Source: Acidobacteriaceae bacterium (GTDB taxonomy: Bacteria; Acidobacteriota; Terriglobia; Terriglobales; Acidobacteriaceae). Taken from it: a stretch of 51,659 bases of DNA. The position numbers were made by a program, and so were the translations under genes. Positions 6,623-39,106 of this stretch are shown one piece after another; within the stretch, counting starts at the first letter, position 1; each line of letters starts with the position of its first letter. A model generated the notes under the pieces. That model did no database searches. It saw nothing but the letters and a program-made list of their open reading frames with translations, and was not told the DNA's origin. The stretch lies in assembly GCA_030041515.1 (NCBI GenBank), contig JASHNS010000121.1, positions 1-51,659 of the forward strand. The letters run 5' to 3'.

Positions 6623-7612
6623 ATGATCTCGGTCGTGGTCCCCATCTACAACGAGGAAGAACTCATCTCCACCTTCCACGCGGCCATCGCGACCGCCATG
6701 CGAGACGTTGGCGAAGATTGGGAGGTTGTCTACGTTAACGATGGTTCCAGGGATTCTTCGCTGGACCTGATGAAGGAACTGCAAAAGCAGGATTCCCACA
6801 TCGTCGTCGTCGACCTGTCGCGCAACTGGGGACACATGGGCGCCATTTCCGCCGGATTACGAACGGCGCGCGGCGAAGGTGTCATCATCATGGACGGCGA
6901 TTTCCAGGATCCTCCGGCTGTCCTGCCCGAGCTGGTGGCGGCGTGGCGCGGCGGCGCACAGGTCGTGGTCGCTGTCAGACGGAGCCGCCAGGAGAGCCGT
7001 AAGTTCCTCGCCCTCCTGTTTCCCATTTTCTATCGCGTGCTCTCCGCGATCTCCGATTATCCGATCCCTCTGGACGCCGGCATTTTCGGTCTGCTCGATC
7101 GGCAGGCCCTCGATTCCATCAACGGCCTGCGGGAGGGGAATCGCTATCTACCGGGCCTCCGCGCCTGGGTCGGCTATAAAAACGCCATCGTTTACTACGA
7201 CCGCCAGGATCGCCTGGCCGGGGACGGCAAGCTGTCGTTCATCAGCAGGATCAAGTACGCGATGGACGCCATCACCAGCTTCAGCTTCAAGCCGCTGCGC
7301 CTTTGCTTCGCGTTGTCGTGCCTGTCGATGGGCGTGGTGGTCGTGCTCGGTCTTCTGGCGCTGTTTGCGGGCGGTTCCATTGCGGCTGCCGGGCTGGGAG
7401 TCGCCGCGGCGGTGTTTGCGGTGGGAGCTATGTTGCTGCTCTGCCTCGGCATCATAGGCGAGTACCTTGGACGCGTCTACGACGAGGTGCGCAGCCGGCC
7501 GTTGTCGATCATCAATAAAGTGCATTACGCAAATGAAGAGATCGCGGCGAAAACGCCGGATCAGATCATGGAACGAGAGCCCGCACTGGCCCTGAAGGGA
7601 CGCGCCGCATAA
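6623..7612 (+). CDS. Family 2 glycosyltransferase with two C-terminal membrane helices (GtrB/ArnC-like)
   Basis: This 329-residue enzyme probably transfers a sugar from a nucleotide donor to polyprenyl phosphate on the cytosolic face of the inner membrane. The GT-A core shows VVVPIYNEEE at the N-terminus, VNDGSRDSS (38-46) and the metal-binding DGDFQDPP (DxD at 91-93). Two strong transmembrane helices follow (about 232-256 and 262-288), then the family-typical GEYLGRVYDEVRSRP. Length and layout match the GtrB/ArnC/DPM1-type group. The start is supported by GGAG close upstream. It precedes flippase copy A by about 200 bases on the same strand, so it could supply the lipid-linked sugar that the flippase moves. 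Confidence 0.88.
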   Translation: MISVVVPIYNEEELISTFHAAIATAMRDVGEDWEVVYVNDGSRDSSLDLMKELQKQDSHIVVVDLSRNWGHMGAISAGLRTARGEGVIIMDGDFQDPPAVLPELVAAWRGGAQVVVAVRRSRQESRKFLALLFPIFYRVLSAISDYPIPLDAGIFGLLDRQALDSINGLREGNRYLPGLRAWVGYKNAIVYYDRQDRLAGDGKLSFISRIKYAMDAITSFSFKPLRLCFALSCLSMGVVVVLGLLALFAGGSIAAAGLGVAAAVFAVGAMLLLCLGIIGEYLGRVYDEVRSRPLSIINKVHYANEEIAAKTPDQIMEREPALALKGRAA

Positions 7613-7815: not shown

Positions 7816-9846
7816 GTGTTAAGGGACTCATCGAATCAGACTGGCAGCCTGAAGTCTCGCCTTGTGGCAGGTTGCGCCGTACTGCTCTCCGGCTCCACTT
7901 TCGCAACGCTCTGCAGTTTCGCTTACAACGTCGTCATCGCCCATTTTCTGGGTCCGGACAATTATGGGCAGGCCGTCGCCGTCTACACCGTCCTGACCCT
8001 CGTCTCAACTCTGACGCTCTCGTACCAGCTTCTGGCCGCCAAAGTCACTGCTCAGCAGGACTCCCTCGGAGCCAAGTGCGCAGCGTACCGCGACCTGCAT
8101 CGTCAGGCCACGGTCTGCGGCGTTGCGGTCGCGCTCTCGCTTGTGCTCTTTGAGCGGAACATTGCGGCGTACCTGCACCTCTCCAGCCCCCTCCTGATCT
8201 TCCTCATCGCAATCGGAGCGGGATTCTACGTGCCGCTGGGAGCGCGCCGCGGCTTCACGCAGGGACTGTACGGGTTCCGCCGCCTGGCCACCAATCTGGT
8301 GCTCGAAGCCGCGGTGCGCCTGGGCGGATCGACTGTGATGGTGTTGCTGGGCACCGGCGTCACCGGCGTGATTGCGGCCAATGCCGCCGCGTCCGTGATT
8401 GCCTGGGCGACCATTGCCCCCAAAAAATCCGAACCAATGCCAGGTCCGCTGCGCCTGCGCCAGATGCTGCCTGAAATGTCGCAGGCTCTGGTTTTTTTCG
8501 CCGGCCAGATGCTGATCAACAACTCCGACATGGTGCTGGTCAAGCACTATTTTGTGCCCATGATGGCCGGGCTTTATGCTGCCGTGGCGCTCATCGGCCG
8601 GGTCATTTACACCTTCTCGTCGGCGGTCATCAACAGCATGTTTCCCATCTCCGCCGGCGCTCACCATGAGGAGCGAAAGAGCTTTTCCCTCATCGCGACC
8701 TCGCTTCTGCTGGTCGCCGGCTGCGGAATCGCAATGACGCTGGGCCTGCTGATGCTTCCCGCCCGCGTCTGGACTGTTTTCTTCGGCGCCGGATTCATAA
8801 TGCCTGGCCAGCACGGTTTGTCTTTCCTGCTGGCGCTCAAAGGCATTGCCTGCGTCATCTACTCGTTAAGCGTGGTCATCATCACCTACGAGATGTCCTA
8901 CCGGATCGCGAATACCAGCTGGATCCAGCTGGCCTTCAGCGCCGCGGTGATCGCCGGCATCTGCCGCTTCCATTCCTCCCTGGAGCAGGTCATCCTGGTG
9001 CAGCTGGTGCTGATGATCGTGCTGCTGCTGGTGGCGGGGGCTCCAGTTCTGCGCGACGCCCTGCGGCATCGGGAGGTACCGGCAGCGAGCTATCCGGCCG
9101 CCCTTCCGGTGCTTCGGCGCTCTTCGGAAGCGGATGCGATTGCCGAATTCCTGAAGTCCGATTTCGATCATGTGGCATACGGAGACCATCGCCGCACCAT
9201 GCGAGCCATGGTCCTGTCGCCCGACCTGTCCAATCCGGCAGAGAATGCGCAAAGGCGGGCGCTGCTTTACCTGCGTCATCTGGCGCTCTGGAATGAGCTT
9301 CCGGCGGACACCCAGTGGTATGAACTGGCCGTGGCCGAAGCAGACCTGAACGGAATTCGAGTTTTCCCGCGCGCCCAGTGGCGCAGGATGGGCGCCCGCA
9401 ATTTCGGAGTTCCGGAAATCGTAGCGAGTATGCGGAGGCGGATTCAGGAGTGTCCGAATGATCCGTTCGCGGCCAAGATCGCCTCGATGAGCCAGACCAT
9501 TCAGCAGGGCAAGCTGCCGGCCGCGGCGGTCCTCATGATCGGACGCGACGATTCCCAGCCACTCACGGTAATCGATGGCAATCACCGTTTGATCGCCGCG
9601 GCCCTGGCGGGACGGCTCGACCGACTGCGCTTCCTGTGCGGCCTCTCTCCGAGCATGGAGAAGTGCTGCTGGTACCAGACCAGTTCCGCGACCCTGGCGC
9701 GTTACGCAGTCAATCTGGTTCGGCACGCCGTGTATGATCCCGAAGCCGAGCTGACGTGGTGCCGTCTTGAGACGGACCCGCTGGCGGCCCAGTCTGTGTC
9801 GATCTCTCCGGTGACAACCGGCGATGGCGCTACCCGCCACGCATAA
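7816..9846 (+). CDS. Polysaccharide flippase fused to a ParB/sulfiredoxin-like C-terminal domain (copy A)
   Basis: 676 residues with a GTG start (GGAGG 8 bases upstream). Residues ~12-420 are a Wzx/MATE-type flippase with about 12 membrane helices (LLSGSTFATLCSFAYNVVIA..., NNSDMVLVKHYF). They are followed by a cytosolic part of ~240 residues not expected in Wzx proteins. That part has an Arg/Asp-rich helical segment with FPRAQWRRMG, then VLMIGRDDSQPLTVIDGNHRLIAAAL, whose IDGNHR (586-591) matches the nucleotide-binding motif of ParB/Srx/SerK-fold proteins. The conserved CGLSPSM...CCWY block follows, with Cys at 608, 617 and 618. The flippase moves lipid-linked glycans across the inner membrane; the role of the C-terminal domain is unknown. 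A paralogue of the same layout lies at 35942-37915. Confidence 0.85.
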   Translation: MLRDSSNQTGSLKSRLVAGCAVLLSGSTFATLCSFAYNVVIAHFLGPDNYGQAVAVYTVLTLVSTLTLSYQLLAAKVTAQQDSLGAKCAAYRDLHRQATVCGVAVALSLVLFERNIAAYLHLSSPLLIFLIAIGAGFYVPLGARRGFTQGLYGFRRLATNLVLEAAVRLGGSTVMVLLGTGVTGVIAANAAASVIAWATIAPKKSEPMPGPLRLRQMLPEMSQALVFFAGQMLINNSDMVLVKHYFVPMMAGLYAAVALIGRVIYTFSSAVINSMFPISAGAHHEERKSFSLIATSLLLVAGCGIAMTLGLLMLPARVWTVFFGAGFIMPGQHGLSFLLALKGIACVIYSLSVVIITYEMSYRIANTSWIQLAFSAAVIAGICRFHSSLEQVILVQLVLMIVLLLVAGAPVLRDALRHREVPAASYPAALPVLRRSSEADAIAEFLKSDFDHVAYGDHRRTMRAMVLSPDLSNPAENAQRRALLYLRHLALWNELPADTQWYELAVAEADLNGIRVFPRAQWRRMGARNFGVPEIVASMRRRIQECPNDPFAAKIASMSQTIQQGKLPAAAVLMIGRDDSQPLTVIDGNHRLIAAALAGRLDRLRFLCGLSPSMEKCCWYQTSSATLARYAVNLVRHAVYDPEAELTWCRLETDPLAAQSVSISPVTTGDGATRHA

Positions 9847-13770: not shown

Positions 13771-16320
13771 CTAGCTGCCCCCGCCGAAGCTCGCCGCGTT
13801 GCAGTTTCCAGGCGACGGATTCGGCGTTGGCGGCGTTGGCGGAGTCAGCCACGGCGGACTGGTGAAGTCGAAGAAGTCCAGCAGATTCGGCTGCGCCGCG
13901 TCGCGCTTCGTCAGGTTCGCGCTGGGACCAATAAAGCGGTTCTCCACAAACTTGATCACCGCCGTGTGATCCATTGGGGTGTGCCCCACATAGTGCGGGA
14001 TGGTGAAAGGCGAGATGATCATATTCGGCACGCGGAAGCCCAGTTGCGCTGCGAAGCCGTATTCGGCCGCAGCATCCTCGTTGGGCCCGGGGGTCGTGTT
14101 CGTCCCAGGTTCTCCCGACGTCAAATCGCAGTATCCCTGATTGCCGCTGCCGACCCACTCGGGCGTGCCGCTCGGCGGGAGGCAGGGATAGTACTGGTCG
14201 GGGTTCACCGCGATATTCGAAATACTCGGAATGCTCGTGACCGGCTCGTCGCCCACCATGGCATTTGTGTTCTCATTCGAGTAAGGGACACCCGTGGTCG
14301 GATCGTTACCGGGGATCGGGGGAACGTGATCGTACGGACCGCCGCCCTCGTCATAGGCCAGGAAGAAGACCGAATTCGGCCACTCCGGGCTGCCCATGAA
14401 GGCGTTGATGATGCTGGCTACCTCCGCCTGGCCCTTCAGGACCGACTGCCCCGAGCCTGGGTGTTCGTCGTTTTCCGTGAAGCCTGGCTCGATATAGACA
14501 AAGGCCGGCAGCGTGTTGTTTTTCAGATCGGCGTAGTACCCGTAGGTCGGATCGCTGATGGGCGCGATGTGCGTCGGATCGATGCAGAACGAGTTGGTGG
14601 GATCGCCCACCGCCGCTTTCGAACCCATCGTCGGAGCCGTGCACTGTGCGCCTGATTTGTTCAGGTAGAGGTATTTGACGGAATACGTAAAGTCTTCAAA
14701 CTCCGAAGCCGGGAAATAGGCGTCGGCGCCCCCGCTGCACTCATCTTCGGCGGCGCAGTCTCCCTCCGTCACGGTGTAGTAGATCTTCCAGGACACGCCC
14801 GCCTTGTCGAGTTCCTGGAAGATAGTCTGGGCGCTCAGTTGGGGCAGATGATCCGCTCCTGGATCCTTGGTCAGGCCCTGCGTCGTGCCGCCGGTGAGTG
14901 TCGCGATGCGGTTGTCGACCGTGTAACTCGAGACCGGCGAGAACCAGCGATCGGACAGCGCGAACTGGCTGGCCATGTAGTAGTAGTAGTTCAGCGTGCT
15001 CTGCGTGTAGTACCCCATGGCGCGCTCGCCATTGGTGTCCGTGAAGCTGCCCGAGCAGCTGTGGGAAGCCGCGCAGCTCGTCGCATAGCCCTCCGCGTTG
15101 TGAACGAAGCCGTTCATCAGGATGGGGCGGCTGGCGGAGAAATCGTACGTGTTCACGTCGCCGTAGCTCTCCTCCCATGCCGACGATTCGTCATCCACAC
15201 AGGTGCTGGTCAGCGGGAAAATCGGGTACGTCACTTTGTTGTCGTTGGTGTTGCTGAACGTTCTCATCGTGCTGTCGGTGCTCGGCGTCGTCCCGGTGAG
15301 CCCATCCACCTCGTAGTTGGTGGTGCCGACCATATTCCAGTTATTGGCGTCGCGATAGGGGTCCAGCATGCCGAAGTAGTTATCGAACGAGTGATTCTCC
15401 TGCATCATGAAGATCACGTGATCGATTTCCGTCTCGTTGCCTGACGCCTCGACTGTGACGGTCGCCTGCGCCGTGGTCGTCCCGCCCGGCCCCGTCGCCG
15501 TGGCCGTATAGGTGGTGGTGTCCGCGGGCTGTACGGTTTGGCTTCCTCCCGTGTCCGCCATGGTGTAGCTCGAGCCGTCCGTGCCGCTGATCGTCACCGA
15601 GGTCGCATTACTCGCCGTCACGTTCAGCGTAGACGTTCCTCCCGCCACAATCGCCGTGGGGCTGGCCGCTATGGTGAGCGTCGGGGGTCCTACCTGGTTG
15701 ACCGTGATGGTGACCGACGTGGACGTAGCCGTCCCTCCGGGTCCGCCCGCCGTCGCCACGTAGGTTGTCGTATTTGTGGGAGTCACCGTCTGCGTGCCGC
15801 CAGTGTCGGCCAGCATGTAGGTGGACCCATCCGTCCCGCTCAGCGTCACCGACGTCGCGTTGGTCGCGGTCACGGTGAGCGTTGCCGATGCCCCCGCATT
15901 AATCGTCGTGGGAGTTCCAGTAAGGGTCACGGTAGGGGTGGCGGGGGGGGCCGCCGCAACGGTAACCACGGCTGTCGCCGTCGCACTCCCACCCGTTCCC
16001 GTTGCAGTCGCCGTGTACGTTGTCGTCGTCGTGGGCGATACGACCTGCGTCCCTCCCGTGGCCGGTACTGTATAGCTGCTCCCGTCGGAACCGGTGAGCT
16101 TGACGCTGGTGGCGTTGTTCACGGTGATCGAGAGCGACGCGGTTGCGCCCGCGGTGATCGAAGCCGGGCTGGCGGACAGACGGACAGTCGGAGCCGGGTT
16201 GCTGCTGGAGCCGGCAAGCCAGCCGCACCCGGAGAGAGGCAGAAGAAAACACGCAGTGAGAACCAGGGCCGAGGCCGCCAGGATGCGGGCGTTCAACCTA
16301 CGCGCGAGCAATGTCAGCAA
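13771..16320 (-). CDS. Lipoprotein phosphoesterase (phospholipase C / acid phosphatase superfamily) with three Ig-like repeats
   Basis: 849 residues with a TTG start preceded by GGAAGG at 9 bases. The signal sequence ends in a lipobox-like LPLSGC, so the protein is probably lipid-anchored. Three tandem ~86-residue Ig/PKD-like repeats follow (about 42-295), each with ATSV-x-x-x-G-x-DGS...TTTYTATA-x-GxGG. The catalytic domain (about 300-840) opens with DHVIFMMQENHSFDNYFG (~310) and has FLAYDEGGGPYDHVPP, then HTPMDHTAVIKFVENRF near the end. These are the metal/phosphate signatures of the PF04185 family, which hydrolyses phosphodiesters or phosphomonoesters. A second family member without a visible repeat part lies at 50428-51659. 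The gene has its own terminator. Confidence 0.9.
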   Translation of the reverse strand: MLTLLARRLNARILAASALVLTACFLLPLSGCGWLAGSSSNPAPTVRLSASPASITAGATASLSITVNNATSVKLTGSDGSSYTVPATGGTQVVSPTTTTTYTATATGTGGSATATAVVTVAAAPPATPTVTLTGTPTTINAGASATLTVTATNATSVTLSGTDGSTYMLADTGGTQTVTPTNTTTYVATAGGPGGTATSTSVTITVNQVGPPTLTIAASPTAIVAGGTSTLNVTASNATSVTISGTDGSSYTMADTGGSQTVQPADTTTYTATATGPGGTTTAQATVTVEASGNETEIDHVIFMMQENHSFDNYFGMLDPYRDANNWNMVGTTNYEVDGLTGTTPSTDSTMRTFSNTNDNKVTYPIFPLTSTCVDDESSAWEESYGDVNTYDFSASRPILMNGFVHNAEGYATSCAASHSCSGSFTDTNGERAMGYYTQSTLNYYYYMASQFALSDRWFSPVSSYTVDNRIATLTGGTTQGLTKDPGADHLPQLSAQTIFQELDKAGVSWKIYYTVTEGDCAAEDECSGGADAYFPASEFEDFTYSVKYLYLNKSGAQCTAPTMGSKAAVGDPTNSFCIDPTHIAPISDPTYGYYADLKNNTLPAFVYIEPGFTENDEHPGSGQSVLKGQAEVASIINAFMGSPEWPNSVFFLAYDEGGGPYDHVPPIPGNDPTTGVPYSNENTNAMVGDEPVTSIPSISNIAVNPDQYYPCLPPSGTPEWVGSGNQGYCDLTSGEPGTNTTPGPNEDAAAEYGFAAQLGFRVPNMIISPFTIPHYVGHTPMDHTAVIKFVENRFIGPSANLTKRDAAQPNLLDFFDFTSPPWLTPPTPPTPNPSPGNCNAASFGGGS

Positions 16321-16420: not shown

Positions 16421-17818
16421 TTAATTCGCGTCGGCGTATTCATCTCCGTCAGAAAGATTGGCGCGCGACCCACGGCGCGGCCTGGTTTCCGCTATCGCCG
16501 CCTCCAGCACGTCGGGGTCCATCTCAGAGTTTGTTGCTGGCATGTGAACGAGCGGCCTGGACCTCAGCCTTCCCCGCCATCCCGGCAGCCGCCGGCCGCC
16601 CGACCACAGGCTCTTGTCGGCGATTTCGCGCTTGCACCGGTGCAGCTCAAACCAGCGCAGGTAGTTGCGCACTACGCTGGACATCGTCATCTGAATGCCC
16701 GCCTGGTAATTGTGCAGCGCCATCTGCCGCTCCAGTTCCGGCGATTGCAGAATGTCCACAAGCTTGTCGGCGAGGTCCGCGGCGCTGCCTGTCTTATAGA
16801 AATTGATGGCCATCTCGTCGTCTTTCGCCATGCAGTGGAAGTCCGGGATATCGGCGCACACAATCGGCAGTCCGAATTCGCAGGCCTGATGAGCCGGCCC
16901 GCTGGATCCCGTCGACGAATCGTAAGGCATCACCAGGAGAGAGCTGGTGCGGAACATCTGCGGAACGTCTTCGTCGCGAACATAACCGAGAAACTCAATG
17001 GGCAGGTGTTTGGGCTGGGCCGCGCGCACCGTCTCCCAATAACCCGGCCGCGTATGGTGGTTGCCACCCGCGACCACGAGCCGCGCATTGGGCACGCGCT
17101 TAAGCACCAGCGGAAATGCCTCCATGAGGGTTTCCAGCCGCTTGTAGGTGCCCCAGTGCCCGAAAGCCAGAATGCGGCGCTCGGGATTGTTCCGCATGCT
17201 GAAGTCCGGCGGGGTGCACACCGTCGAGAACGTCCCGTGCGTGCCGACCACCACATTGTCTGCCGCGTATTTCTTCATCAGCGTGCGACGGTAGGCGGAA
17301 AGCAGGACAGAAACCGAATGCGCCTGCAGCAACGCTCGCGTGGCTACATTCGTCCCCAGCCGGTAGAGCTTCTCGCGCTTCACGCCGGCATCGCCGAAAT
17401 CCACGTGCTCGATGATGTGGTGCAGCGTGATATGGGTGTAAAACCCGGCCGCGCGCGTGAGCGCGGGAGCCGAGAGGCCGGCGAAAGCGGCGAACGGGCT
17501 TTCCGGCCCGGCGAAGCTGGAGAACACCAGGTTGAACCACACCACGTCCGGCTGCAGCTTGCGAATCGTGCTCAGCAGGCGTGCAGGTGTTCCCATGCTT
17601 CCGAATTTCCAGCACCGGATGACGTTGAACTCCGGCAGTTCCGGCGGCGGTTCGCTCTTTTCGCCCGACTCGCCCGTGAACTCGTATTGCCCCAGCTCGT
17701 CCGCAAGGATGGTCAGTTCCACGTCGGGGTAGCGCTGAATCTCGCGCGCGATGTGCCAGGAATACTCATTCAGCTGCCGCCGGCTGGGTGGAAAAGCCGC
17801 CACTAAACAGATTTTCAT
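16421..17818 (-). CDS. GT4-type glycosyltransferase
   Basis: 465 residues with the two-Rossmann GT-B layout. The N-terminus is MKICLVAAFPPSRRQLNEYSWHIA. FGHWGTYKRLETLMEAF (~218-234) starts the C-terminal donor domain and VVAGGNHHT follows. GPAHQACEFGLPIVCADIPDF (~310-330) includes the E-x-x-x-x-x-x-E-like position of GT4 retaining enzymes, with Glu before FGLP. The C-terminal ~60 residues are Arg-rich and probably disordered. No membrane helix is seen. It is encoded 10 bases after the 1421-residue TPR/barrel gene, so the two are co-transcribed. It probably adds a sugar during synthesis of the polymer that the barrel exports. Confidence 0.85.
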   Translation of the reverse strand: MKICLVAAFPPSRRQLNEYSWHIAREIQRYPDVELTILADELGQYEFTGESGEKSEPPPELPEFNVIRCWKFGSMGTPARLLSTIRKLQPDVVWFNLVFSSFAGPESPFAAFAGLSAPALTRAAGFYTHITLHHIIEHVDFGDAGVKREKLYRLGTNVATRALLQAHSVSVLLSAYRRTLMKKYAADNVVVGTHGTFSTVCTPPDFSMRNNPERRILAFGHWGTYKRLETLMEAFPLVLKRVPNARLVVAGGNHHTRPGYWETVRAAQPKHLPIEFLGYVRDEDVPQMFRTSSLLVMPYDSSTGSSGPAHQACEFGLPIVCADIPDFHCMAKDDEMAINFYKTGSAADLADKLVDILQSPELERQMALHNYQAGIQMTMSSVVRNYLRWFELHRCKREIADKSLWSGGRRLPGWRGRLRSRPLVHMPATNSEMDPDVLEAAIAETRPRRGSRANLSDGDEYADAN

Positions 17819-17828
17819 TAGGCCCGCC

Positions 17829-20800
17829 TCAAAACAGATTGATGCTTACGTAGGGTCGAAACTCCTGGTTCCTGCCCGGACCAGCGTAGTTGGGGAACGT
17901 CTCTTCCTGAACCCCGGCCGAAAAGCGAATGGGATACTTCACATGAACCTCACCAGTGTCTTCGTTGAAGCTGCGGCCGAACGGTCGCATGTAGGAGAGC
18001 GAGAACCCATTTTGCGTCATGTCATACACATGGAAGCTGCGCGTATTCTCGTAGGCGGTCGAGAACTGCAGTTGCCAGTTTCTCGCCGGCGAATAGTTGA
18101 CGGTCCCGGCGGGTCGCAGCGCCTGCGCGATTCCGGAATGCACCGCGAAGGTTCCTGGAGTAACCACGAACGGCACCACGCGCCACGCACGCCAGTCTTC
18201 CGCCATCCCCTCGATATTCAGATGCGGGGAAAACCGGTGCGTCAATCCGATGTACGACGTTGTGAAGTAGTTTTCCGTGTTTCCGAGAGAAGTTGAGGTG
18301 AAAAGCTGGTCGTTCGAGCCCCAGCCCGTCACCAGGGCGGTTTTCGACCAGGGGGCGCCCACCCGGAAATCCACGCTTCCCGACAGCGTCGACTCGTGCA
18401 GGGGAATCTCGGTGAACGGCCCGAAATCGTGCAGAACGTAGGCGTTCACCGACACCGCATCCCAGAACGAGCCCGTGCTCAGGTAGGCAAACAGCCGTCC
18501 TATGTTCTGGTTCATCTCTCGCGGGGCGAGCGTGTCGCGGCGGACCGTGCCCTGGAACCCGGCGTTGAAGGAGAGCATCGTGGGTCCCAGATGAAAATTG
18601 GGATCCACGCCGTAGTTGAAGTTGTAGTCGTAGGTGCTGCGCCTCACAATACCGATGGCGGGCATGGAAATCAGGCCTCGGGCATTGCGGATCTGGAAAA
18701 ATCCGCCCGTGGTCGGCCAATGGTTCAGGTGCAGATGGAACGCGTCCGTCCACTCTGTATCGATCGAGTAGCGCGGCAGCGGGAGCCTTGCCGTGTCCAC
18801 CGTCGTGCCATAGATCGCCGGAGGATTTCCGAACGTCTCCGAGTCCAGCACATAGACCGTGCTGTCTTCGTAGATGGGCTGCTGCAGCACATTGGACAGC
18901 ACGCTGACATGGTGATTGATGCGATAGCCCTCGTTCGCTCCCACCTGCATCAGGTCCTGCTCGGCGGTCTGGTCCTCGCCGGCGGCGCTCGCCGCCTGCG
19001 CGAACGCGGAAAGCGCCGCGGTTCCCTGGTGCTCCTGCTGGTACACATTCGCCTGCGCCATCAGGAATGAGTAGTCCGACTTCGCGACGTCGGCCTGGCT
19101 CACTGCTGCCAGCTCTCCAGCGGCGCGCTGCGTCTGGCCGAGCGCCAGATAGCTGTTCGCCAGGTCTACGCGTACGTCGATGTCGGAGGCGCCCGCCGCC
19201 AGCGCGCGCTCCAGATAGGTCTGCGAAAGCTGGTATTCATGCATCTGCTGCAGAATGCCGGCAGCCTGCAGGTACTGGGGCCCGGTGGGCGGTTCGGTCA
19301 CGCCTGCTTCGGCTTCCATCTGGGCCAGCGCAATCTGCCGCTCCGCTTCGGCGTTGTGACCCTCCTGCACCATCACCTGCGCGATGGCCAGGCGCACGCC
19401 CACTCGATTGCTCCGGGGAGCCACCAGCGCCCGCGCAAACCGCTGCATCGCGGCTTTATTGTCGCCCAGGGTGCTAAGCGCTTCGCCGGTATCCACATAA
19501 ATATCGCTGGGTACCCAAGTCGCACCTTCCATCGGCGGGTGATCCGCCAGCTTCTCCGCCAGTTCGACGTTGGCAATCGCCTGCCGGCGATCCGGAATCC
19601 CCGCATACGCGCGCGCCAGCATCGCGTAGATCTGCGCATCGTTGGGCAGATACTTCCCTGCCGTATTCAGCTCGACAATGGCGTGATGAAAGCGCCGCTG
19701 CGAGAAATAAATGTTGCCCAGATCCATGTACAGCGTGCCGTCCCGGGGCGCAAAACGCAGCGCCGCGCGGTATTCGACCTCCGCGTTCGACAACATCCCC
19801 TCGCGTCCGTATGCCGTGGCGCGGATGATGTGCACCGCCTCCGAATCGCCGAGATACGCCTGGGCCAACCTGGAGTGCTTCAGCGCGCCCTCGGAGTCGT
19901 TCAGCGCCAAATCAGAGAATGCGAGCCCGAGCTGCGCCTGCCCGTCTTTCGGCTCCAGCTTGATCGCTTCCGTAAAATCCTTCTGCGCCGGGGCGGGCTG
20001 GCGCAGATCGTTTTCCACAAAGCCGCGATTGACGTAGGCGGTTTCTACCGTCGGACCGCGACGAATCGCTTCGGTGAAGGCCTGCAGCGCCTGCTGGTCG
20101 TCGCCCTTTTCCTTGTAGACGTAGCCTTCCAGCAGCGGAATATCCGGCTCGTTGGGGAGATTGCTTCCGTATTTTTGCATCAGGGCCAGCAGCTGGTCGT
20201 ATTTGTCCATATTCAGCAGGTCATAGCCCAGATACACCACCACATCGCGATCCCGCGGCAGCGACTGGATTGCCTTCTCGCCGTTGTCGGCCGACTCGCG
20301 ATAGTTTCCCTGGAAGCGGAAGTACCGCTCCTTCTGCGCCAGGATCTGCGGGGTGTTGTACATCTCCGGCGTGACGCGATTCAGCCACGTGGCCGCCAGT
20401 GTCATGTTGTGCTCTTCAATGGCCGCGTTCATGGCGTCGGAAACGATCAGCGCGTTCTTCGGCGCAAGCTTCCACGCTTTCTCGTAATACGCGTTCGCCT
20501 TCCTGTACTGATCGCGGTCCGTGTACAGGTCGCCCAGGGCGAGATAAGGAACGTAGAGGTCCGGATAATCGCTGGCCAGGCGGTTGAAGTACTTCTCCGC
20601 TTCGCGTTCATTGTGTTCCGTGCGCGCCGCATAGCCCAGCGACGTGAGCGCGAGGCGGCTGCGTGGATCGATGCCCAGCACCTTCTTGTAGACGGCAATC
20701 GCATCGTCGGTTCGGCCCATCTTCATCAGCACGTCGCCGTCGATCTGCAGGCTGTTCGGATCGTTCGGCGTGAGCGCCAGCGCCGCCTGCATGTCGTTGA

Positions 20801-22094
20801 GGGCGGCTTGCAGCTGTCCGGCGTTCATCTCGATCTGCGCACGCAGCCGCAGGAATCCCGGGCGCTCGTTCGCAGCCACCTGGACCCCGCTGATCTGCCG
20901 CTGCGCGATCTGTAACTGTTGCTGCGCCCGATCGTCCTCGCCCAGCTGGTGGTACAGAGACTGCAAATCCATGTGCAGCTGGATTCCATAGAGCGGGCCT
21001 TCCGCCGGAGCAGGCGGAAGATTCGCAATCGCCTGCTGGTATTCCTTCACGGCCTGGTTCTCGTGATCCCCCAGTTCCGCAATCTCCGCGCGGATTTGGT
21101 GCAGCCGATAGTAATTGGGGTTAATCTGCGTCGCCCTCGTCAGGAAAGGATCGGCGCGATCGGGCGCCTGGGCCGTCACCTCCGCCTGCGCGGCGGAGAG
21201 CTGCATCCCCAGGTTGTGCGGCATTGCGTTCGCAGCCCGCACATACATCTGCGCCGCGTCCTGCGGTTTGCCGTCGAGCTGATAGGTGAACGCCAGCTCG
21301 CCCACCACGTCCGGCGGTGGATTGCGAATCGCCTTCAGCTCGTCGATGGCCTTGCCGTAATCGCCGGTCTCGCGGTAGTAGCCAGCCAGCGAACGCTCCA
21401 CATCGGGATTATTCGGGGCGCGCTTCTCCGCCAGATGGAGATAATGGCTGGCCTTGTCCATCTGGTTTTGGCGCTCATAGCAGATGGCAAGCAGCAACTC
21501 CGCGCGCGCATTTCCTCTCACGTCTTCGGCCCGGGTCAGATAGGTGATCGCATTTGGATAATCCGCCGCGTGCAGGTAAAGATTGCCCAGCACCAGCAGA
21601 TCGTCCTCCTGGCGGGGATCAACGGCAAGCGCCTGCTTGAGCAGCTTTTCGGCTTCGGCAGTCCGTCCCATGTCGCTGTACGTCTGCGCCAGCCCCGAAA
21701 TGCCCTGCACCGACGACGGCTGTAGCCGCAGCCCGTGCTCGAAGGCGCTGGCTGAGAGGCTGTAGTTGCGGTTCAGCCGCGCCACATAGCCCAGCAGAAA
21801 CCAGAGCTGCGGGTCGTTGGGAGCCGAGCGCGCCGCGCGATCCGCGTAATTCTCCGCGGTCGGGTAATCCCCGCGCTTCAGCGCCAGCTCCGCCGCACGC
21901 GCCAGCCGCGCGTTCTGGATGTTCGATCCCCACCCGAGCTGATTCTGGGTCTGGCCGTTGGGCTTCTGGGCTTTTACCTGGCCACCGGATCCAACCTGAT
22001 AGGTCTGCGCATACGCAGTGCACGCGAATACAAACAGCGCGACGGCGCCTGCGAACGTAAGGCACTTATGTCTTGATGTCAAACAGGTCACCAA
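17829..22094 (-). CDS. TPR-repeat outer-membrane beta-barrel protein (BcsC/PelB-like exporter)
   Basis: 1421 residues: a signal peptide (about 12-29, GAVALFVFACTAYAQ), a superhelix of roughly 25 TPR units (about 60-1040; many A-x-x-x-x-A-x-x-x-x-P-x-D/N-P repeats such as AVDPRQED and LALTPNDPNS), then a ~330-residue strand-rich domain ending VSINLF. A C-terminal aromatic is typical of outer-membrane barrels. This order is that of BcsC, PelB and PgaA, which guide and export polysaccharides. The frame opens with adjacent TTG and GTG codons (22094, 22091) and no clear ribosome-binding site, so the exact start is uncertain. It is co-transcribed with the GT4 gene and divergent from the 22215-26501 operon. 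No cellulose- or Pel-type synthase is adjacent, so the polymer is unknown. Confidence 0.82.
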   Translation of the reverse strand: MVTCLTSRHKCLTFAGAVALFVFACTAYAQTYQVGSGGQVKAQKPNGQTQNQLGWGSNIQNARLARAAELALKRGDYPTAENYADRAARSAPNDPQLWFLLGYVARLNRNYSLSASAFEHGLRLQPSSVQGISGLAQTYSDMGRTAEAEKLLKQALAVDPRQEDDLLVLGNLYLHAADYPNAITYLTRAEDVRGNARAELLLAICYERQNQMDKASHYLHLAEKRAPNNPDVERSLAGYYRETGDYGKAIDELKAIRNPPPDVVGELAFTYQLDGKPQDAAQMYVRAANAMPHNLGMQLSAAQAEVTAQAPDRADPFLTRATQINPNYYRLHQIRAEIAELGDHENQAVKEYQQAIANLPPAPAEGPLYGIQLHMDLQSLYHQLGEDDRAQQQLQIAQRQISGVQVAANERPGFLRLRAQIEMNAGQLQAALNDMQAALALTPNDPNSLQIDGDVLMKMGRTDDAIAVYKKVLGIDPRSRLALTSLGYAARTEHNEREAEKYFNRLASDYPDLYVPYLALGDLYTDRDQYRKANAYYEKAWKLAPKNALIVSDAMNAAIEEHNMTLAATWLNRVTPEMYNTPQILAQKERYFRFQGNYRESADNGEKAIQSLPRDRDVVVYLGYDLLNMDKYDQLLALMQKYGSNLPNEPDIPLLEGYVYKEKGDDQQALQAFTEAIRRGPTVETAYVNRGFVENDLRQPAPAQKDFTEAIKLEPKDGQAQLGLAFSDLALNDSEGALKHSRLAQAYLGDSEAVHIIRATAYGREGMLSNAEVEYRAALRFAPRDGTLYMDLGNIYFSQRRFHHAIVELNTAGKYLPNDAQIYAMLARAYAGIPDRRQAIANVELAEKLADHPPMEGATWVPSDIYVDTGEALSTLGDNKAAMQRFARALVAPRSNRVGVRLAIAQVMVQEGHNAEAERQIALAQMEAEAGVTEPPTGPQYLQAAGILQQMHEYQLSQTYLERALAAGASDIDVRVDLANSYLALGQTQRAAGELAAVSQADVAKSDYSFLMAQANVYQQEHQGTAALSAFAQAASAAGEDQTAEQDLMQVGANEGYRINHHVSVLSNVLQQPIYEDSTVYVLDSETFGNPPAIYGTTVDTARLPLPRYSIDTEWTDAFHLHLNHWPTTGGFFQIRNARGLISMPAIGIVRRSTYDYNFNYGVDPNFHLGPTMLSFNAGFQGTVRRDTLAPREMNQNIGRLFAYLSTGSFWDAVSVNAYVLHDFGPFTEIPLHESTLSGSVDFRVGAPWSKTALVTGWGSNDQLFTSTSLGNTENYFTTSYIGLTHRFSPHLNIEGMAEDWRAWRVVPFVVTPGTFAVHSGIAQALRPAGTVNYSPARNWQLQFSTAYENTRSFHVYDMTQNGFSLSYMRPFGRSFNEDTGEVHVKYPIRFSAGVQEETFPNYAGPGRNQEFRPYVSINLF

Positions 22095-26007: not shown

Positions 26008-26501
26008 TGCGCCGCCTCCTGCTGTTCGCCTGCGCACTCGCGCTGCCATTGGCCGCGTGCGCCCAGGATGCCTCCGTCCAGGTGGTGCCGCCCGACCTCC
26101 ACGGTTCGCGGCAGCTGGAGGTGCTCACTGCGACCTCCGTTGTGCGCGATTATCTTGAGTCCTGGAAGGCCTTCCGCACCGCCCTCAACCAGAATGCACC
26201 GCAGGCGCTCAGCGAGGATTTCGTCGGCACGGCCCTCACCCGGCTCAGCGACACCATCGCCCAGCAGAGCAAGCTTGGCCTCCACACGCGTTACACGGAT
26301 CGCTCGCATCGCCTCCAGATCGTCTTCTATTCGCCCGATGGCTTGTCCCTTCAGATCATCGATCACGTCGACTATGACGAGCAGGTGATGCAGGGGGCCA
26401 CAGTCATAGCGACGCAGCCGGTGCAGGCGCGGTATGTCGTTGTGCTCACCCCTTCGCAGACGCGCTGGCAGGTGCGCATCTTCCAGGCCGCCACGGAATA
26501 A
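26004..26501 (+). CDS. Small exported NTF2-like protein, last gene of coupled operon
   Basis: 165 residues: a signal peptide ending ALPLAACAQ (possible lipoprotein Cys), then a ~120-residue domain with a first helix VRDYLESWKAFRTALNQNAPQALSEDFVG and later strands ending WQVRIFQA. This is the order of an NTF2/SnoaL-like or ARC6-IMS-like fold. The ATG overlaps the stop of the Ig-like gene (ATGA at 26004-26007). It may bind a small ligand or a partner in the envelope; the role is unknown. Confidence 0.65.
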   Translation: MMRRLLLFACALALPLAACAQDASVQVVPPDLHGSRQLEVLTATSVVRDYLESWKAFRTALNQNAPQALSEDFVGTALTRLSDTIAQQSKLGLHTRYTDRSHRLQIVFYSPDGLSLQIIDHVDYDEQVMQGATVIATQPVQARYVVVLTPSQTRWQVRIFQAATE

Positions 26502-26610
26502 GTACAACGACTGGGCGCGCCATGACCTCGCCCGAGCGAAGTCGGACGCTCTGCCCGCTTTTCGCAGATGCGGGAGAGCACAAAACCCGGTTTGCATTCC
26601 GATTCTTCTC

Positions 26611-34165: not shown

Positions 34166-34933
34166 TCATGAGGCGACGGGGCGGACATCTTCGCTCTTTG
34201 GCTGCAGGTCCTCAGCCGGCGCGTTCGGGCGGAGCGTGACTACAGGAACCTCGGCGTTGCGCATTTTTCTGACGTGGACGAGCCGCAGGACCCGTCGCGC
34301 TACATCGGCCTTTGCTTCTTCCAGGGATTGGGCGGGGATGACGGTCATCCTTCCCAGAAACTCGCCGAGCCGCAGGTAGGCATTGCGGTTCTCGAGGAGG
34401 AAGGGCAGCGGATACTCTGGTTTGCGCTTGTGCGCCTGCTCAGGATTCGCGTCGAGGATCAGGGCGAGTTGCGGGCGGGGAACGAGGCGCGCGATGGCCC
34501 GCACGTAGAGCCGGGCCGCCGGAGTTCCCAGATCGAGATTAGCCAGCTCGTCGAAAATGTAGCGATCGAAGATGACAACGTCGACTCCGGAACGCAACGC
34601 GCGATTCGCGACGCCGCGCAGGGAAAGTGCGTCGAGTGTGTAGAGGCCGAGCCGCACGAGGGTCATGAGCGGCGAGCGAACGTTCTTGTCGCGGCGCTCG
34701 ATAGGCTTTTCCGGGCTGCCAACGCCCTTGTCGCCGCCGAAAATCCGGTGTCCGGCGCCCTCGCGGATGGATTTCAGGCGCGCAGCATCGTCCCAGAAGG
34801 TGAGCAGGCGATATCGCAGACCTTCTGCTTCGAGGGTTCGGCAAACATTGTCGATCTGCGTGCTCTTGCCGGCGCCGTCGATGCCGGAAAAGCTGATGAG
34901 CAGCGTAGAGGGGTGGAATTGGCGGCGAGTCAT
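34166..34933 (-). CDS. Thymidylate-kinase-like P-loop protein
   Basis: 255 residues with a Walker A GIDGAGKST (17-25) and the dTMP-kinase-like FSGIDGAGKSTQIDNV start. VVIFDRYIFDELANLDL (~122-138) is the DR-Y base-binding loop, and a lid-like NPEQAHKRKPEYP follows. An insertion around 55-90 (SIREGAGHRIFGGDKGVGS...) and a ~40-residue basic/Pro tail distinguish it from housekeeping Tmk (~210 residues). It is last in an operon with flippase copy B, the STAS protein and a small membrane protein, which suggests a regulatory or sugar-nucleotide-kinase role rather than dTTP synthesis. Confidence 0.75.
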   Translation of the reverse strand: MTRRQFHPSTLLISFSGIDGAGKSTQIDNVCRTLEAEGLRYRLLTFWDDAARLKSIREGAGHRIFGGDKGVGSPEKPIERRDKNVRSPLMTLVRLGLYTLDALSLRGVANRALRSGVDVVIFDRYIFDELANLDLGTPAARLYVRAIARLVPRPQLALILDANPEQAHKRKPEYPLPFLLENRNAYLRLGEFLGRMTVIPAQSLEEAKADVARRVLRLVHVRKMRNAEVPVVTLRPNAPAEDLQPKSEDVRPVAS

Positions 34934-35433: not shown

Positions 35434-35829
35434 TCAGGCTGCGCTCTCGGCAGCGACTTCCAGAGCGTCGATGTTGAGGCCTGGGGGCAGGGCCGAGGGC
35501 CGCTGCTGAAAGCTGTGCACCGCTTCCCCCACCGTCGAATAAATTTCGAACAGGCGCCGGAGCCCGTTGAGCTGCGGAGAGACGCGTGCTTCCGGCGGCA
35601 GCGCAGCCAGGCGCACATCCCCATTGCGTTTCATGGCCTCTTCCAGGCAGGAGAGAAGAAGATGCATAGTCGGCCGGTTCATGCGCCGTATCGCAGAGCA
35701 ATCGAGCACGAGGCGAGGCCGTTCCGTTTCCACATATTCCTGCAAATTGCGTAAAAATGCGCGTTCTTCCGAGGCGGTCACTTCGGCTGGAACTTCATGC
35801 ACTGTGACCGCACGCATAGTAATTAGCAT
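35434..35829 (-). CDS. STAS-domain protein (anti-anti-sigma-factor-like)
   Basis: 131 residues, a single STAS fold. RPRLVLDCSAIRRMNRPTMHLLLSCLEEAMKRNGDVRLAALPPEARVSPQL (~37-87) follows the D-x-S-x-V-x-x-x-D-S-S-G-x-x-x-L pattern, but the usual phosphorylatable D-S-S is replaced by N-R-P-T, leaving Thr as the possible acceptor. An N-terminal strand/helix segment (~1-35) and an Ala/Glu tail surround it. The usual partner, an anti-sigma kinase (RsbW/SpoIIAB-like), is not encoded nearby. It follows flippase copy B by ~112 bases and precedes the small membrane protein and P-loop kinase. AT-rich DNA at 35830-35885 may hold an internal promoter. Confidence 0.8.
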   Translation of the reverse strand: MLITMRAVTVHEVPAEVTASEERAFLRNLQEYVETERPRLVLDCSAIRRMNRPTMHLLLSCLEEAMKRNGDVRLAALPPEARVSPQLNGLRRLFEIYSTVGEAVHSFQQRPSALPPGLNIDALEVAAESAA

Positions 35830-35941: not shown

Positions 35942-37915
35942 TCACGACATCTGGCCGGATCGTTCAAAGAGCCGGTCGAGCTCGGCCTCCGGATGGTAAG
36001 TAAGATGCCGAACACGGTTCTTTCCGTAACGGCTGAGTGTCACAAAATTTGTGCGATACCAGCAGCACTGGTGCATGCTGGGGGACAACCCGCAGAGCAC
36101 CCGGAGCTGGGGGAGGCGGTTTTCCAGCACCGCGGCCGCCAGGCGATGGTTTCCGTCGATGATGGTGAGGGGCTCGTACTCGTTGCGCCCGATCAGAACC
36201 ACGGCGCCAGGAAGGGCCTCCGGGTGGCTTAGACGCCGGCGGAAGGCGTCAATTCTGCGCAGGAACGGGTCCTCGGCGCGGCTGCCGTCGCGACGGGCCA
36301 GCTTTCCGGCCACACTGGGCAAACCAGGTTTGCCCCGGGCAATTCTGCGCCACTGGGCGCGCGGGAAGACGTGGATGCGGTCGAGGGCGGACTCGCGGAG
36401 CTCCACTTCGTACCATTCGGTATTCTCCGGAATCTCTTTCCACAGCGCCAGGTGGCGGACATAGAGCAGGGCGCGGCGCTTGGCGCACTCCGAAGGCTCG
36501 TCGAGATCGGGGTCCTCCACAAGTGAGCGCATCGAGTCGCGGTAGTCGCGGTAGACGTCGTGATCGAAGTCGGAGCGGAGGAACTCAGCGATGACCTCGT
36601 CCTCGGAAATATGACGGATGAGGCGAATGGCCGGCGATGCCGCCTGCGAGGATGTCTGAGCCCCACGAAACATGCTGAGGAGAAACGGCACGGCGACGGC
36701 CAGCAGCAACAGGAGCATCAACAGCAACTGCACCAGCAGCACTTCCCGCAGCGAAGCGTGGAAGCGGCAGATGCCGGCAATGACGGCGCCGGCAAAGGCC
36801 AGCTGCACCCACGCCGTGTTGGCGATGCGATACGACATCTCGTAGGCGATCACAAGAATGCTGAGCGAAAACACCATCGTGACGATGGCCTTGAGCGACA
36901 GCAGGTAGGGCATGCCGTAAGGCCCGGCAATGTGAAAGCCTTTGCCGAAGAACATTGTCCAGATCCAGGGAGGAGCAAGGCGCAGGCCGATCGCCATAGC
37001 CGAGCCGATACCCAGCACGAGCAGCATGGAAGTGGCAATCAGCGAGAGGCTCCTGCGCTCCTCGTGGCGCGCCCCGGCCACAACGGGAAACATGCCATTC
37101 ATGATGGCGGAGGAAAACGAAAAGATGACGCGGCCAACCAGGGCAATGGCGGCGTAAAGTCCGGCGGTGGCGGGAGCGAAGAAATGCTTCACCAGCACGA
37201 TGTCGCTGTTGTTGATGAGGACCTGTCCGGAGAAGAAGACCAGCGCCTGCAGCAACTCCCGTGCTGCGAGCATGCCGCCGAGGGGGTTGGGGCCGGAAGC
37301 CGCGAGGCTGGGCCGGATAACGAGCCACGCGATCGCTTCGGCGGCGGCATTGGCGCCGATCACGCCGGTGACGCCGAAGCCGAGAAGCACGGCAACCAGC
37401 GAGCCAACCAGGCGCGTTCCCGCTTCGAGCACCAGGTTTGAAGCGAGCTTGCGGAAACCGCAGGCGCCGAGGATGTAGCCGCGCCGGCTGCCCAACGGTA
37501 CATAGAACGCTGCGCCGCAGGCGAGAAGAACAACGAGCAGCGGGGTGGGCAAGCGGAGATAGTCCGCGACCTGGTGGCGGAAGACCACCAGCAGACAGGC
37601 CACAAAAAGGCCGCAGCTCCAGGCGCTGCGATGGAGAAAGCGATAAGCTGCGCTGCGGCTCTCTTCGGAGCCCGGCCGCGCCACCACCTTGGCTGTGACG
37701 ATCTGGAACGAGAGGGTGACAGCGGACGCGATCGTGAGCATCGTGTACACGACCGCGACGTGCCCGTAGCCCGCAGTTCCGAGGAAGCGGGCAACGGCGA
37801 TGTTGTAGCCGAGATTGATAACCGTCGTGAGTGTCGAGCCGGACAACAGCACGGCGCTTCCGGAGATAATCCGGTTGCGCAGTTTTTTCGAGTTCTCCAC
37901 GGGTTGGTTCGACAC
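35942..37915 (-). CDS. Polysaccharide flippase fused to a ParB/sulfiredoxin-like C-terminal domain (copy B)
   Basis: 657 residues with a GTG start at 37915. Layout is as in copy A: ~12 membrane helices (about 15-415, LLSGSTLTTVINLGYNIAVARFLGTAGYGHVAVVYT, NNSDIVLVKHFFAP), then a ~235-residue cytosolic part. The latter shares long stretches with copy A: EVIAEFLRSDFDHDVYRDYRDSMRSLV, KRRALLYVRHLALWKEIP, HVFPRAQWRRI, IDGNHR (586-591, the same residue numbers) and VLCGLSPSMHQCCWYRTN. Conservation of the linker and C-terminal domain is at least as strong as that of the membrane part, arguing that the domain is functional. It heads the operon with STAS, small membrane protein and P-loop kinase genes and is divergent from the GH99-like gene. 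Confidence 0.85.
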   Translation of the reverse strand: MSNQPVENSKKLRNRIISGSAVLLSGSTLTTVINLGYNIAVARFLGTAGYGHVAVVYTMLTIASAVTLSFQIVTAKVVARPGSEESRSAAYRFLHRSAWSCGLFVACLLVVFRHQVADYLRLPTPLLVVLLACGAAFYVPLGSRRGYILGACGFRKLASNLVLEAGTRLVGSLVAVLLGFGVTGVIGANAAAEAIAWLVIRPSLAASGPNPLGGMLAARELLQALVFFSGQVLINNSDIVLVKHFFAPATAGLYAAIALVGRVIFSFSSAIMNGMFPVVAGARHEERRSLSLIATSMLLVLGIGSAMAIGLRLAPPWIWTMFFGKGFHIAGPYGMPYLLSLKAIVTMVFSLSILVIAYEMSYRIANTAWVQLAFAGAVIAGICRFHASLREVLLVQLLLMLLLLLAVAVPFLLSMFRGAQTSSQAASPAIRLIRHISEDEVIAEFLRSDFDHDVYRDYRDSMRSLVEDPDLDEPSECAKRRALLYVRHLALWKEIPENTEWYEVELRESALDRIHVFPRAQWRRIARGKPGLPSVAGKLARRDGSRAEDPFLRRIDAFRRRLSHPEALPGAVVLIGRNEYEPLTIIDGNHRLAAAVLENRLPQLRVLCGLSPSMHQCCWYRTNFVTLSRYGKNRVRHLTYHPEAELDRLFERSGQMS

Positions 37916-38125: not shown

Positions 38126-39106
38126 ATGGCTGGACGTGTCGGCGCTGCGGCGCTTTTTCTGGTTTTGCTGCTTCACGGATGTCTGGGTTCGTCCCCGCCG
38201 CCGCGGCTGCAATACACTGCGGCAGGACCCACGCCGGAGCTGCTGGCTCTGTACGAAGGCTGGTTCGGCGAGCCGAATCATTTGAACGTCGGTTATTCCT
38301 CGCACGATCCTCATACCGTTCGCGATCAGATTCGGCGGGCGAAGCAGATGGGAATTTCTGCGTTCGTCGTGGATTGGTACGGGGACCGGGATCCGTTCGT
38401 CGACCAGACGTATGCCCTGGTTGAGAAACAGGCGGCGAAAAACAAATTCCATGTCGCGATGATGTACGACGAGTCGGATGCAACCGACGGCGCCACGGAT
38501 GCGGCAATTGCCGATCTGACGATGTTTCACGACAGCTACCTCGCCACGAAGGACGGGCGCGACGCGTATCTGACCTATCAGGGACGGCCGATGATTTTCG
38601 TTTTTCCGCACGGCAATGCGATCGACTGGGATAAGGTGCGGAGCTCTGTGAACCAGTGGAATCCCGCGCCGTGGCTCATCGACGAGAATCTGCCGGGGAA
38701 ATACGCAAACGATTTTGACGGCTTCTATCCGTGGATCAATCCAGGTCCAAAGGGTTGGGCTCCGGATGGCAGCCACTGGGGTGGACTGTATCTGAGCGCC
38801 TTCTACCAGACGATGGCACAGAAATATCCGGGCAAGATCATCGTGGGCGGAGCGTGGCCGCAGTTCAACGACAGCAAAGCGTCGTGGGGACTGAACCGGC
38901 ACATCGACGCGCGCTGCGGGCAAACGTTTCGTGACACGCTGAACCTGTGGCAGAAGTATGTGCCCGCGGGGCAGGTGATCCCGTTCATGATGGTGGAGAC
39001 CTGGAACGACCATGAAGAGGGATCGGCGATCGAAGACGGATTGCCGGCCTGCGGCGGACAGCCTGCGCCAGCGTCGGTGGAGAGCCTGGAAACGCCGGTG
39101 AAGTAA
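38126..39106 (+). CDS. GH99/GH71-like lipoprotein glycosidase
   Basis: 326 residues with a signal sequence ending LLLHGC (lipobox-like, with an unusual His at -2). The barrel domain starts YEGWFGEPNHLNVGYSSHDPHTVRDQIRRAKQMGISAFVVDWYG (~42-86) and ends with PFMMVETWNDHEEG (~289-302), the W-N-D/E-W/H-x-E motif of GH99/GH71-type endo-acting enzymes, where the Glu residues are catalytic or substrate-binding. Such enzymes cleave alpha-mannoside or alpha-glucan bonds. The assignment to GH99 rather than a related uncharacterised family is uncertain. It is divergent from flippase copy B, so it could trim the exported glycan. A strong terminator follows. Confidence 0.75.
   Translation: MAGRVGAAALFLVLLLHGCLGSSPPPRLQYTAAGPTPELLALYEGWFGEPNHLNVGYSSHDPHTVRDQIRRAKQMGISAFVVDWYGDRDPFVDQTYALVEKQAAKNKFHVAMMYDESDATDGATDAAIADLTMFHDSYLATKDGRDAYLTYQGRPMIFVFPHGNAIDWDKVRSSVNQWNPAPWLIDENLPGKYANDFDGFYPWINPGPKGWAPDGSHWGGLYLSAFYQTMAQKYPGKIIVGGAWPQFNDSKASWGLNRHIDARCGQTFRDTLNLWQKYVPAGQVIPFMMVETWNDHEEGSAIEDGLPACGGQPAPASVESLETPVK

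Follow-up and report, generated by a model that had tools for sequence, protein, structure and literature searches.

A flippase paired with a conserved cytoplasmic domain that weakly resembles the ParB/sulfiredoxin fold in Acidobacteriaceae

In a 51,659-nucleotide stretch of DNA from an Acidobacteriaceae bacterium (contig JASHNS010000121.1, hereafter the window) we identified two genes, copy A and copy B, that each encode a Wzx-like flippase followed by a cytoplasmic domain carrying the motif [DE]GNHR. The two halves form a conserved flippase-partner system and not an accident of one genome, because their pairing and gene layouts recur across the family, separately encoded halves overlap as ATGA, and fused and split forms are divided by a single branch of a tree. 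The ParB/sulfiredoxin (ParB/Srx) superfamily is the best-ranked structural match of the modelled domain in two libraries, although the match is weak. We give about an even chance to the explanation that the system is a Wzx-type flippase for a lipid-linked surface glycan, gated by nucleotide through a cytoplasmic partner of ParB/Srx fold. The features of the two copies are as follows.

7816..9846, + strand: copy A, fused flippase and ParB/Srx-like domain, 676 amino acids, GTG start (open reading frame, Pfam, AlphaFold2)
7816..9069, + strand: copy A membrane part, residues 1-418, 12 helices, MOP/Wzx-like flippase (model helices, Foldseek, Pfam PF01943 in relatives)
9109..9798, + strand: copy A cytoplasmic domain, residues about 432-661 (secondary structure; predicted local distance difference test, pLDDT; separate gene in relatives)
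9568..9606, + strand: copy A motif VIDGNHRLIAAAL, residues 585-597, with DGNHR at 587-591 (sequence, alignments)
9577-9588, + strand: copy A GxxR motif, G588-R591 (sequence, alignments)
35942..37915, - strand: copy B, second fused flippase and domain, 657 amino acids (comparison with copy A)
35975..36622, - strand: copy B cytoplasmic domain (comparison with copy A; genome search)
36143-36154, - strand: copy B GNHR (sequence)

The open reading frame and the AlphaFold2 model bear out a first-pass annotation that had read positions 7816-9846 as flippase helices followed by a cytosolic domain. In the full-length model of copy A (64 sequences, mean pLDDT 87.6) residues 12-418 form 12 membrane helices by our division, DSSP merging the first two, and an alpha/beta domain follows. 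Foldseek matches the modelled flippase to a MATE protein (E 1.7e-6), the lipid III flippase WzxE (1.7e-5) and MurJ (2.1e-4), and the hallmark of MOP flippases, at least 12 membrane helices in a MATE/MurJ fold, is thus present. The best Pfam match of the membrane part is Polysacc_synt (PF01943, E 3.5e-5), which at 23.8 bits lies below the cut-off of 28.2; the same family is matched at E<=0.01 by 40 of 64 full-length relatives. Lysines and arginines number 14 versus 4 in alternating loops of the 12-helix division, consistent with a C-terminal tail that is probably cytoplasmic. This tail had been described as about 240 residues ending at the motif, but some 60 further folded residues follow the motif. 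Copies A and B share their layout and 54% identity over 645 columns, and they are the only full copies in the 4.77 Mb genome (the third match has E 0.13). Degeneration of one copy was ruled out, as both retain the motifs.

Among 150 genomes of the Acidobacteriaceae the domain was matched at E<=0.01 in 76, or in 74 once two weak matches are dropped (G147 and G064, E 0.007-0.009). The flippase half was matched in an identical set of 74 genomes at E<=1e-25, a threshold at which more distant domain-less flippases remain possible. We judged 82 domain rows, a further weak site (G082 contig C8, E 0.001) being dropped from the layout count: 53 were in one frame with the flippase, 26 adjacent to it and 3 solo. 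Two adjacent rows (G016, G048) lie in the same frame and were moved to the fused class, and one gene in G136 had been counted twice, so that the final rows are 55 fused, 23 split, in which the domain gene adjoins the flippase gene, and 3 solo, one of which (G024) is a contig fragment. Twenty apparently standalone loci that we retrieved consist of 18 split pairs and two solo domains. In each of the 18 split junctions read, the start codon of the domain gene overlaps the flippase stop codon within ATGA, and in 11 of them GGAGG falls, by eye, within the last dozen bases before the domain start, an arrangement that suggests translational coupling; the pairs of G018, G024, G080, G094 and G136 lie outside this reading. 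The two solo domains (L037, L038) have an apparent single N-terminal membrane segment, as read from the translation, and adjoin aroA-like genes with no flippase called nearby; their genomes also hold a fused copy.

A quick tree of 37 rows places 19 fused and 18 split forms on opposite sides of one branch (Shimodaira-Hasegawa-like approximate likelihood-ratio test, SH-aLRT, 100). We drew the same number of gene layouts, from 35 of 40 retrieved loci and the two window copies. Tree, layouts and domain alignment A2 all omit three loci in which no gene was called (L060, L067, L069) and the two solo loci, and A2 also leaves out L045. In each of the two groups taken separately, pairwise flippase distances are correlated with those of the domain (r 0.67 over 153 pairs and 0.81 over 171 pairs, without a control pair). 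A wider search found 158 relatives among 240 pattern matches, of which the best 80 were retained; seven run off the contig start and are excluded from alignments A3 and A5, the latter omitting 11 more. We rejected the idea that the fusion is an assembly or frameshift artefact, since the 19 fused rows fall on one side of the SH-aLRT 100 branch and 73 of the 80 retained relatives have frames of 651-719 codons uncut by the contig start.

[DE]GNHR is found in all 36 rows of A2 and all 73 of A3, that is, in 109 rows and 107 distinct strings, some of which are one gene trimmed two ways. The residue preceding GNHR is acidic in every string (D in 90, E in 17), and in A2 it is D in all 19 fused rows and E in all 17 split rows. 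FPRAxW occurs in 104 of the 107 strings and xCW[YH] in all, and a second conserved block, LCGLSPSMxxCCWYxT...N, follows the motif. An 11-row alignment that includes three distant homologues keeps ten columns invariant, including two tryptophans and, within GxxR, the G and the R. Conservation of the G-x-x-R motif across homologues, as the first-pass annotation expected, is therefore borne out by its invariance in A2 and A3, and the lack of conservation that it had set as a test was not observed. Crude Nei-Gojobori (NG86) ratios of nonsynonymous to synonymous divergence (dN/dS) against the nearest orthologue are 0.15 (copy A) and 0.23 (copy B) for the domain and 0.12 and 0.11 for the flippase, dS of copy A being near saturation; between the paralogues the domain stands at 0.16 and the flippase at 0.28, dS there being close to or beyond saturation. 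These estimates indicate that the domain is under purifying selection and, together with the invariant motif, put the observation far beyond chance. The cysteine columns C608, C617 and C618 are also of note. Every row of A2 and A3 has Cys618, within xCW, and the CC pair (CCW in 92 of 107 strings) is absent from the three distant relatives; a redox or metal role is possible.

An AlphaFold2 model of residues 424-676, built from a 73-sequence alignment, is confident (mean pLDDT 91.2; predicted template-modelling score, pTM, 0.84) and consists of a small alpha/beta core between two helical regions. The core runs strand 500-504, helix 550-563, strand 570-576, strand 583-587, helix 589-598 and strand 604-610. 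GNHR sits at the start of helix 589-598, and the ParB/Srx feature of a GxxR that follows a strand and opens a helix is present, G588-R591 lying between that helix and strand 583-587. Foldseek returned 113 matches in the PDB at E<=10 and none at E<=0.001. The ParB/Srx superfamily accounts for eight of the first 12 (E 0.39-1.5): six by title, namely 7lj1 (twice), 1xw4 with ADP, 3cyi with ATP, 6ky4 and 6sdk with CDP, and two chains of 8qa9, which we take to be KorB. The top matches thus include ligand-bound structures: sulfiredoxin as ADP and ATP complexes, and ParB carrying CDP. Lower in the list are 7ol9 (Noc) and, at rank 40 with E 5.2, the P. furiosus entry 1vk1, presumably a SerK homologue. 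Among viral models a ParB, Srx or Spo0J name is borne by 13 of the first 25 of 160 matches. The ParB/Srx fold proposed in the first-pass annotation is upheld to the extent that Foldseek ranks this superfamily first for the predicted model, and tempered by the weakness of the match; the outcome that was to count against it, a predicted fold unrelated to ParB/Srx, is not what the structural matches give.

Profile comparison also points, though weakly, toward ParB. We compared four domain alignments by hhalign with a profile of 14 acidobacterial ParB-like sequences, 16 of 30 candidate loci having been left out by eye (eight without a motif match, eight in the wrong frame). The merged alignment places the C-motif helix, the loop, two strands and GxxR in register with ParB. 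A2, the top scorer of the four, likewise brings these elements into register and reaches 28.85, a value attained by none of 200 column shuffles (best 24.89) and none of 14 unrelated neighbour families (best 22.56), and the merged alignment, at 26.6, exceeds all of its 100 column shuffles (best 22.9); these nulls cover A2 and the merged alignment. PHROGs gave weak ParB-like matches at the motif in four of five proteins scanned (E 0.043-0.34), among other weak ones. The [DE]GNHR loop is the probable counterpart of the phosphate-binding loop of the ParB fold. A divergent ParB-like protein (L192) from the order to which the source genome belongs carries GNHR itself, and 13 of the 14 ParB-like sequences have AGERR, so A stands where the flippase-linked domains have an acid.

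The same comparisons bear on convergence, in which the domain would be an unrelated alpha/beta fold whose GNHR loop merely resembles that of ParB/Srx. Such a reading would fit best structural E-values of only 0.39 (PDB) and 0.025 (viral models), the low hidden Markov model (HMM) probabilities and the missing PF02195 match detailed below. However, a single superfamily tops two structure libraries, helix, loop, two strands and GxxR align in register at a score that, with A2, lies beyond all shuffles and control families, and the weak PHROGs matches fall at the motif, and we regard convergence as very improbable.

Several observations nevertheless weigh against a nucleotide-gating partner of ParB/Srx fold. 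PF02195 matched none of 36 domain rows or 64 full-length rows; its model finds one ParB in the same genome (contig C17) but misses the flippase-linked domain. The hhalign probabilities are just 18.5% (A2), 10.0% (merged), 7.1% (A4) and 3.6% (A3), the 73-row A3 scoring only 23.1. For the eight ParB/Srx chains, the query-normalised template-modelling (TM) scores are just 0.15-0.25, which we attribute to the added helical parts that enlarge the domain, and structural scores alone, with a best PDB match at E 0.39, do not cleanly separate a weak true relationship from chance. Conservation is poor in the helix and loop that would touch the nucleotide base in ParB, where K554 alone (with F551 among fused rows) reaches at least 90%. 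The pTM of the full-length model is 0.67, which makes the placement of the domain relative to the flippase uncertain. Finally, a separate soluble subunit in half of the tree is equally compatible with a scaffold or an enzyme.

A canonical ParB, with PF02195 and a helix-turn-helix (HTH), was ruled out, as Pfam gave neither in the 36 domain rows and 64 full-length rows. Other searches with the domain returned matches that we ascribe to chance: by sequence in the PDB, the best being an alginate protein (E 0.25); by profile in the PDB, designed repeat proteins and others (E 0.02-3.9); in Pfam, eight families each in one of 36 rows, none credible (best E 0.022); and in NCBIfam, four families, the best being ribosomal S21 in 3 of 36 rows (E 0.0043). 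The domain defines a family unmatched by Pfam and NCBIfam.

In the explanation that we favour, a Wzx-type flippase of the MOP superfamily would move the lipid-linked glycan of a surface polysaccharide, with its partner fused behind the last membrane helix in one clade and made as a separate subunit, from an ATGA-overlapping gene, in the other. The [DE]GNHR loop would bind nucleotide phosphates, either of a nucleoside triphosphate (NTP) or of the di- or monophosphate (NDP or NMP) released by glycosyltransferases, and the bound state would modify the flippase at its cytoplasmic mouth, thereby gating the flipping step by nucleotide state. An invariant [DE]GNHR, a tail that is probably cytoplasmic and a constant, probably co-made partner lead us to favour a regulatory subunit at that mouth which would depend on a nucleotide, whichever it may be. 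The computation shows the fusion, the pairing in the sampled genomes, the invariant motif, the best-ranked but weak fold match and loop charges compatible with a cytoplasmic tail; translational coupling, nucleotide binding, the identity of the nucleotide, the glycan substrate and gating are inferred. The more specific proposal of a nucleotide-switched glycan flippase, in which an NTP-binding module of ParB/Srx fold, either fused or produced as a coupled subunit, opens and closes a Wzx flippase depending on nucleotide state, is a tentative one that we hold to be possible, if doubtful. Members of the fold bind CTP, ATP or GTP, with GxxR as the phosphate motif, as described in PMC12704722; according to the same source, nucleotide specificity is not reliably predictable from sequence and binding alone is no proof of a switch.

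The genes around the two copies are consistent with a role in surface glycan assembly. Those with relatives or matches of interest are the following.

6623..7612, + strand: family 2 glycosyltransferase directly upstream of copy A (PF00535, E 7.1e-30)
16421..17818, - strand: group 1 glycosyltransferase in the same surface-glycan region (PF13692, E 3.9e-18)
17829..22094, - strand: large TPR protein, 1421 amino acids (relative upstream of the flippase on the same strand in 16 of 37 layouts)
34166..34933, - strand: thymidylate-kinase-like protein downstream of copy B (PF02223, E 3.9e-9; downstream in 25 of 37 layouts)
35434..35829, - strand: STAS-domain protein adjoining copy B on its downstream side (PF01740, E 1.9e-10; upstream or downstream of the pair in 17 of 37 layouts)
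38126..39106, + strand: GH99/GH71-like protein divergent from copy B (PF16317, E 3.6e-6, below cut-off)

The layout counts are lower bounds because the flanks extend up to about 10 kb and less at contig ends. In 13 of the 19 fused layouts the nearest upstream gene is GH99-like and divergently oriented. The commonest order in the 18 split layouts is TPR protein, glycosyltransferase, a protein with weak nucleotidyltransferase similarity, STAS protein, flippase and domain, and thymidylate-kinase-like protein. This glycan gene context suggests that the system makes a surface polysaccharide, and the large TPR protein would have a role in export. STAS domains regulate other transporters, and by this analogy the STAS protein may be a second regulatory subunit. 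The window also contains two related genes whose relatives recur near the flippase elsewhere, one for a phosphoesterase (13771-16320, PF04185) and one grouped with it by BLAST (50428-51546), and two genes for proteins resembling those with a TonB C-terminal domain, 26434-28140 (PF03544, E 5.8e-11) and, as judged by eye, 1952-2989.

The thymidylate-kinase-like gene, so often downstream, would also suit a SerK-like phosphotransferase, which would act at the membrane, passing phosphate from a nucleotide to a small molecule, a sugar or the lipid carrier, its tie to the flippase being one of channelling. The SerK motif is D-G-H-H-R. The first-pass annotation had drawn this comparison, and it holds for the acid, which precedes G in every string of the flippase-linked domains as it does in SerK but not in the AGERR of the ParB-like sequences, and for H-R; it fails at the first H, which is N. 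The presumed SerK homologue 1vk1 is among the structural matches, though weakly, and the PDB sequence search gave no match to SerK/SbnI free-serine kinases. The substrate site is not assignable, and the neighbouring kinase-like gene may already provide the phosphotransferase. SerK is an enzyme that had been annotated as ParB, which suits a phosphotransferase; its substrate is, however, free serine and not threonine, homoserine or peptide (both in the account of PMC5120207), and no serine-metabolism gene is present among the window genes scanned with Pfam. On balance we think an enzyme of this type unlikely.

By title, 79 of the best 80 of the 158 relatives are acidobacterial and one belongs to the Rhodanobacteraceae (L111). 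The latter is a fused gene whose contig was probably mis-binned under a Rhodanobacteraceae metagenome-assembled genome, because the stretch upstream matches acidobacterial neighbour proteins at 71-80%. Across the phylum 8 of 396 genomes were matched, and 11 with a wider profile, three of which (E 0.001-0.008) we do not trust; the only credible distant member added is from another family of the phylum (G322; L160, motif DGHIR), with 3.4 kb of its surroundings covered. Distant homologues also occur on plasmids of Streptantibioticus and Kitasatospora with the motif EGHLR, the Kitasatospora protein having 193 amino acids and being annotated as hypothetical. All three distant relatives (L160, L162, L163) are about 190 amino acids long and carry DGHIR or EGHLR. 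Within 8 kb of the Kitasatospora gene (L162) no flippase is listed, and so the module apparently occurs elsewhere unaccompanied by one. Plasmids gave no match with the window domain as query and three records with the distant same-phylum homologue, two of them from one strain and apparently one plasmid. No phage matched the actinobacterial homologue, and of 25 pattern matches in viral contigs none was confirmed as a relative.

These distant homologues bear on a further reading, in which the domain would serve as a structural adaptor bringing glycosyltransferases or the STAS protein to the flippase, with the ParB/Srx fold kept and nucleotide binding lost or unimportant. That G and R persist in all three, one of them with no flippase listed nearby, argues against an adaptor. 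So does GNHR itself, which ranks with the best-preserved parts of the domain (107 of 107 strings), a constancy not expected of a loop that binds no ligand. Points that would suit an adaptor are the constant pairing, the ATGA overlap, the extension of the conserved blocks FPRAxW and CWY past the GxxR loop and the poor conservation of the helix that would touch the base. In SerK, Srx and PadC the fold is described as serving enzymatic or scaffold roles with no switch-like changes (PMC12704722). We consider a pure adaptor improbable.

The analysis suggests a nucleotide-controlled step in the building of the bacterial surface. How Wzx-type flippases are energised and regulated is an open question. 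The ParB fold would extend to membrane transport; if the tentative nucleotide switch is real, it would give a Wzx-type flippase an intrinsic on/off control and, to our knowledge, show the ParB-CTPase fold at work in such transport for the first time. Because one clade encodes the domain as a lone gene, it could be expressed alone, and nucleotide binding and an effect on flipping are testable in vitro.

Among known systems, the Wzx, MATE and MurJ flippases share the fold of the membrane half and differ by the added C-terminal alpha/beta domain; no Wzx with such a domain of about 240 residues is known to us. Sulfiredoxin is among the best PDB matches and shares the G-x-H-R loop. Its catalytic cysteine lies in GCHR, and sulfiredoxin identity was ruled out because asparagine holds this position in 107 of 107 strings. 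The multidomain proteins of the ParB-CTPase fold (PMC12704722, PNAS 2025) are alike in having a ParB/Srx-like core, an invariant GxxR and a lineage-specific partner, and differ from the flippase domain, which matches neither PF02195 nor an HTH. Their fusions are reported to include HTH, HNH, methyltransferase, CBS, ASCH and other domains, and sections 7 and 9 and further passages of that survey name no flippase or membrane transporter as a partner. Literature searches combining flippase or Wzx with ParB terms likewise had no such fusion among the matches listed, in agreement with the first-pass annotation's claim that no characterised Wzx or MATE flippase carries such a domain, but the general idea is preceded by the pseudokinase domain of MviN (Rv3910), the mycobacterial lipid II flippase. 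MviN is a member of the MOP superfamily with its pseudokinase domain on the cytosolic side. Once phosphorylated, this domain is bound by FhaA, through which control of translocation has been proposed, although the results of the same study (PMC11898655) point instead to FhaA promoting peptidoglycan synthesis. The domain of MviN has a protein-kinase fold and its glycan is peptidoglycan rather than a surface polysaccharide; MviN is the closest functional precedent known to us.
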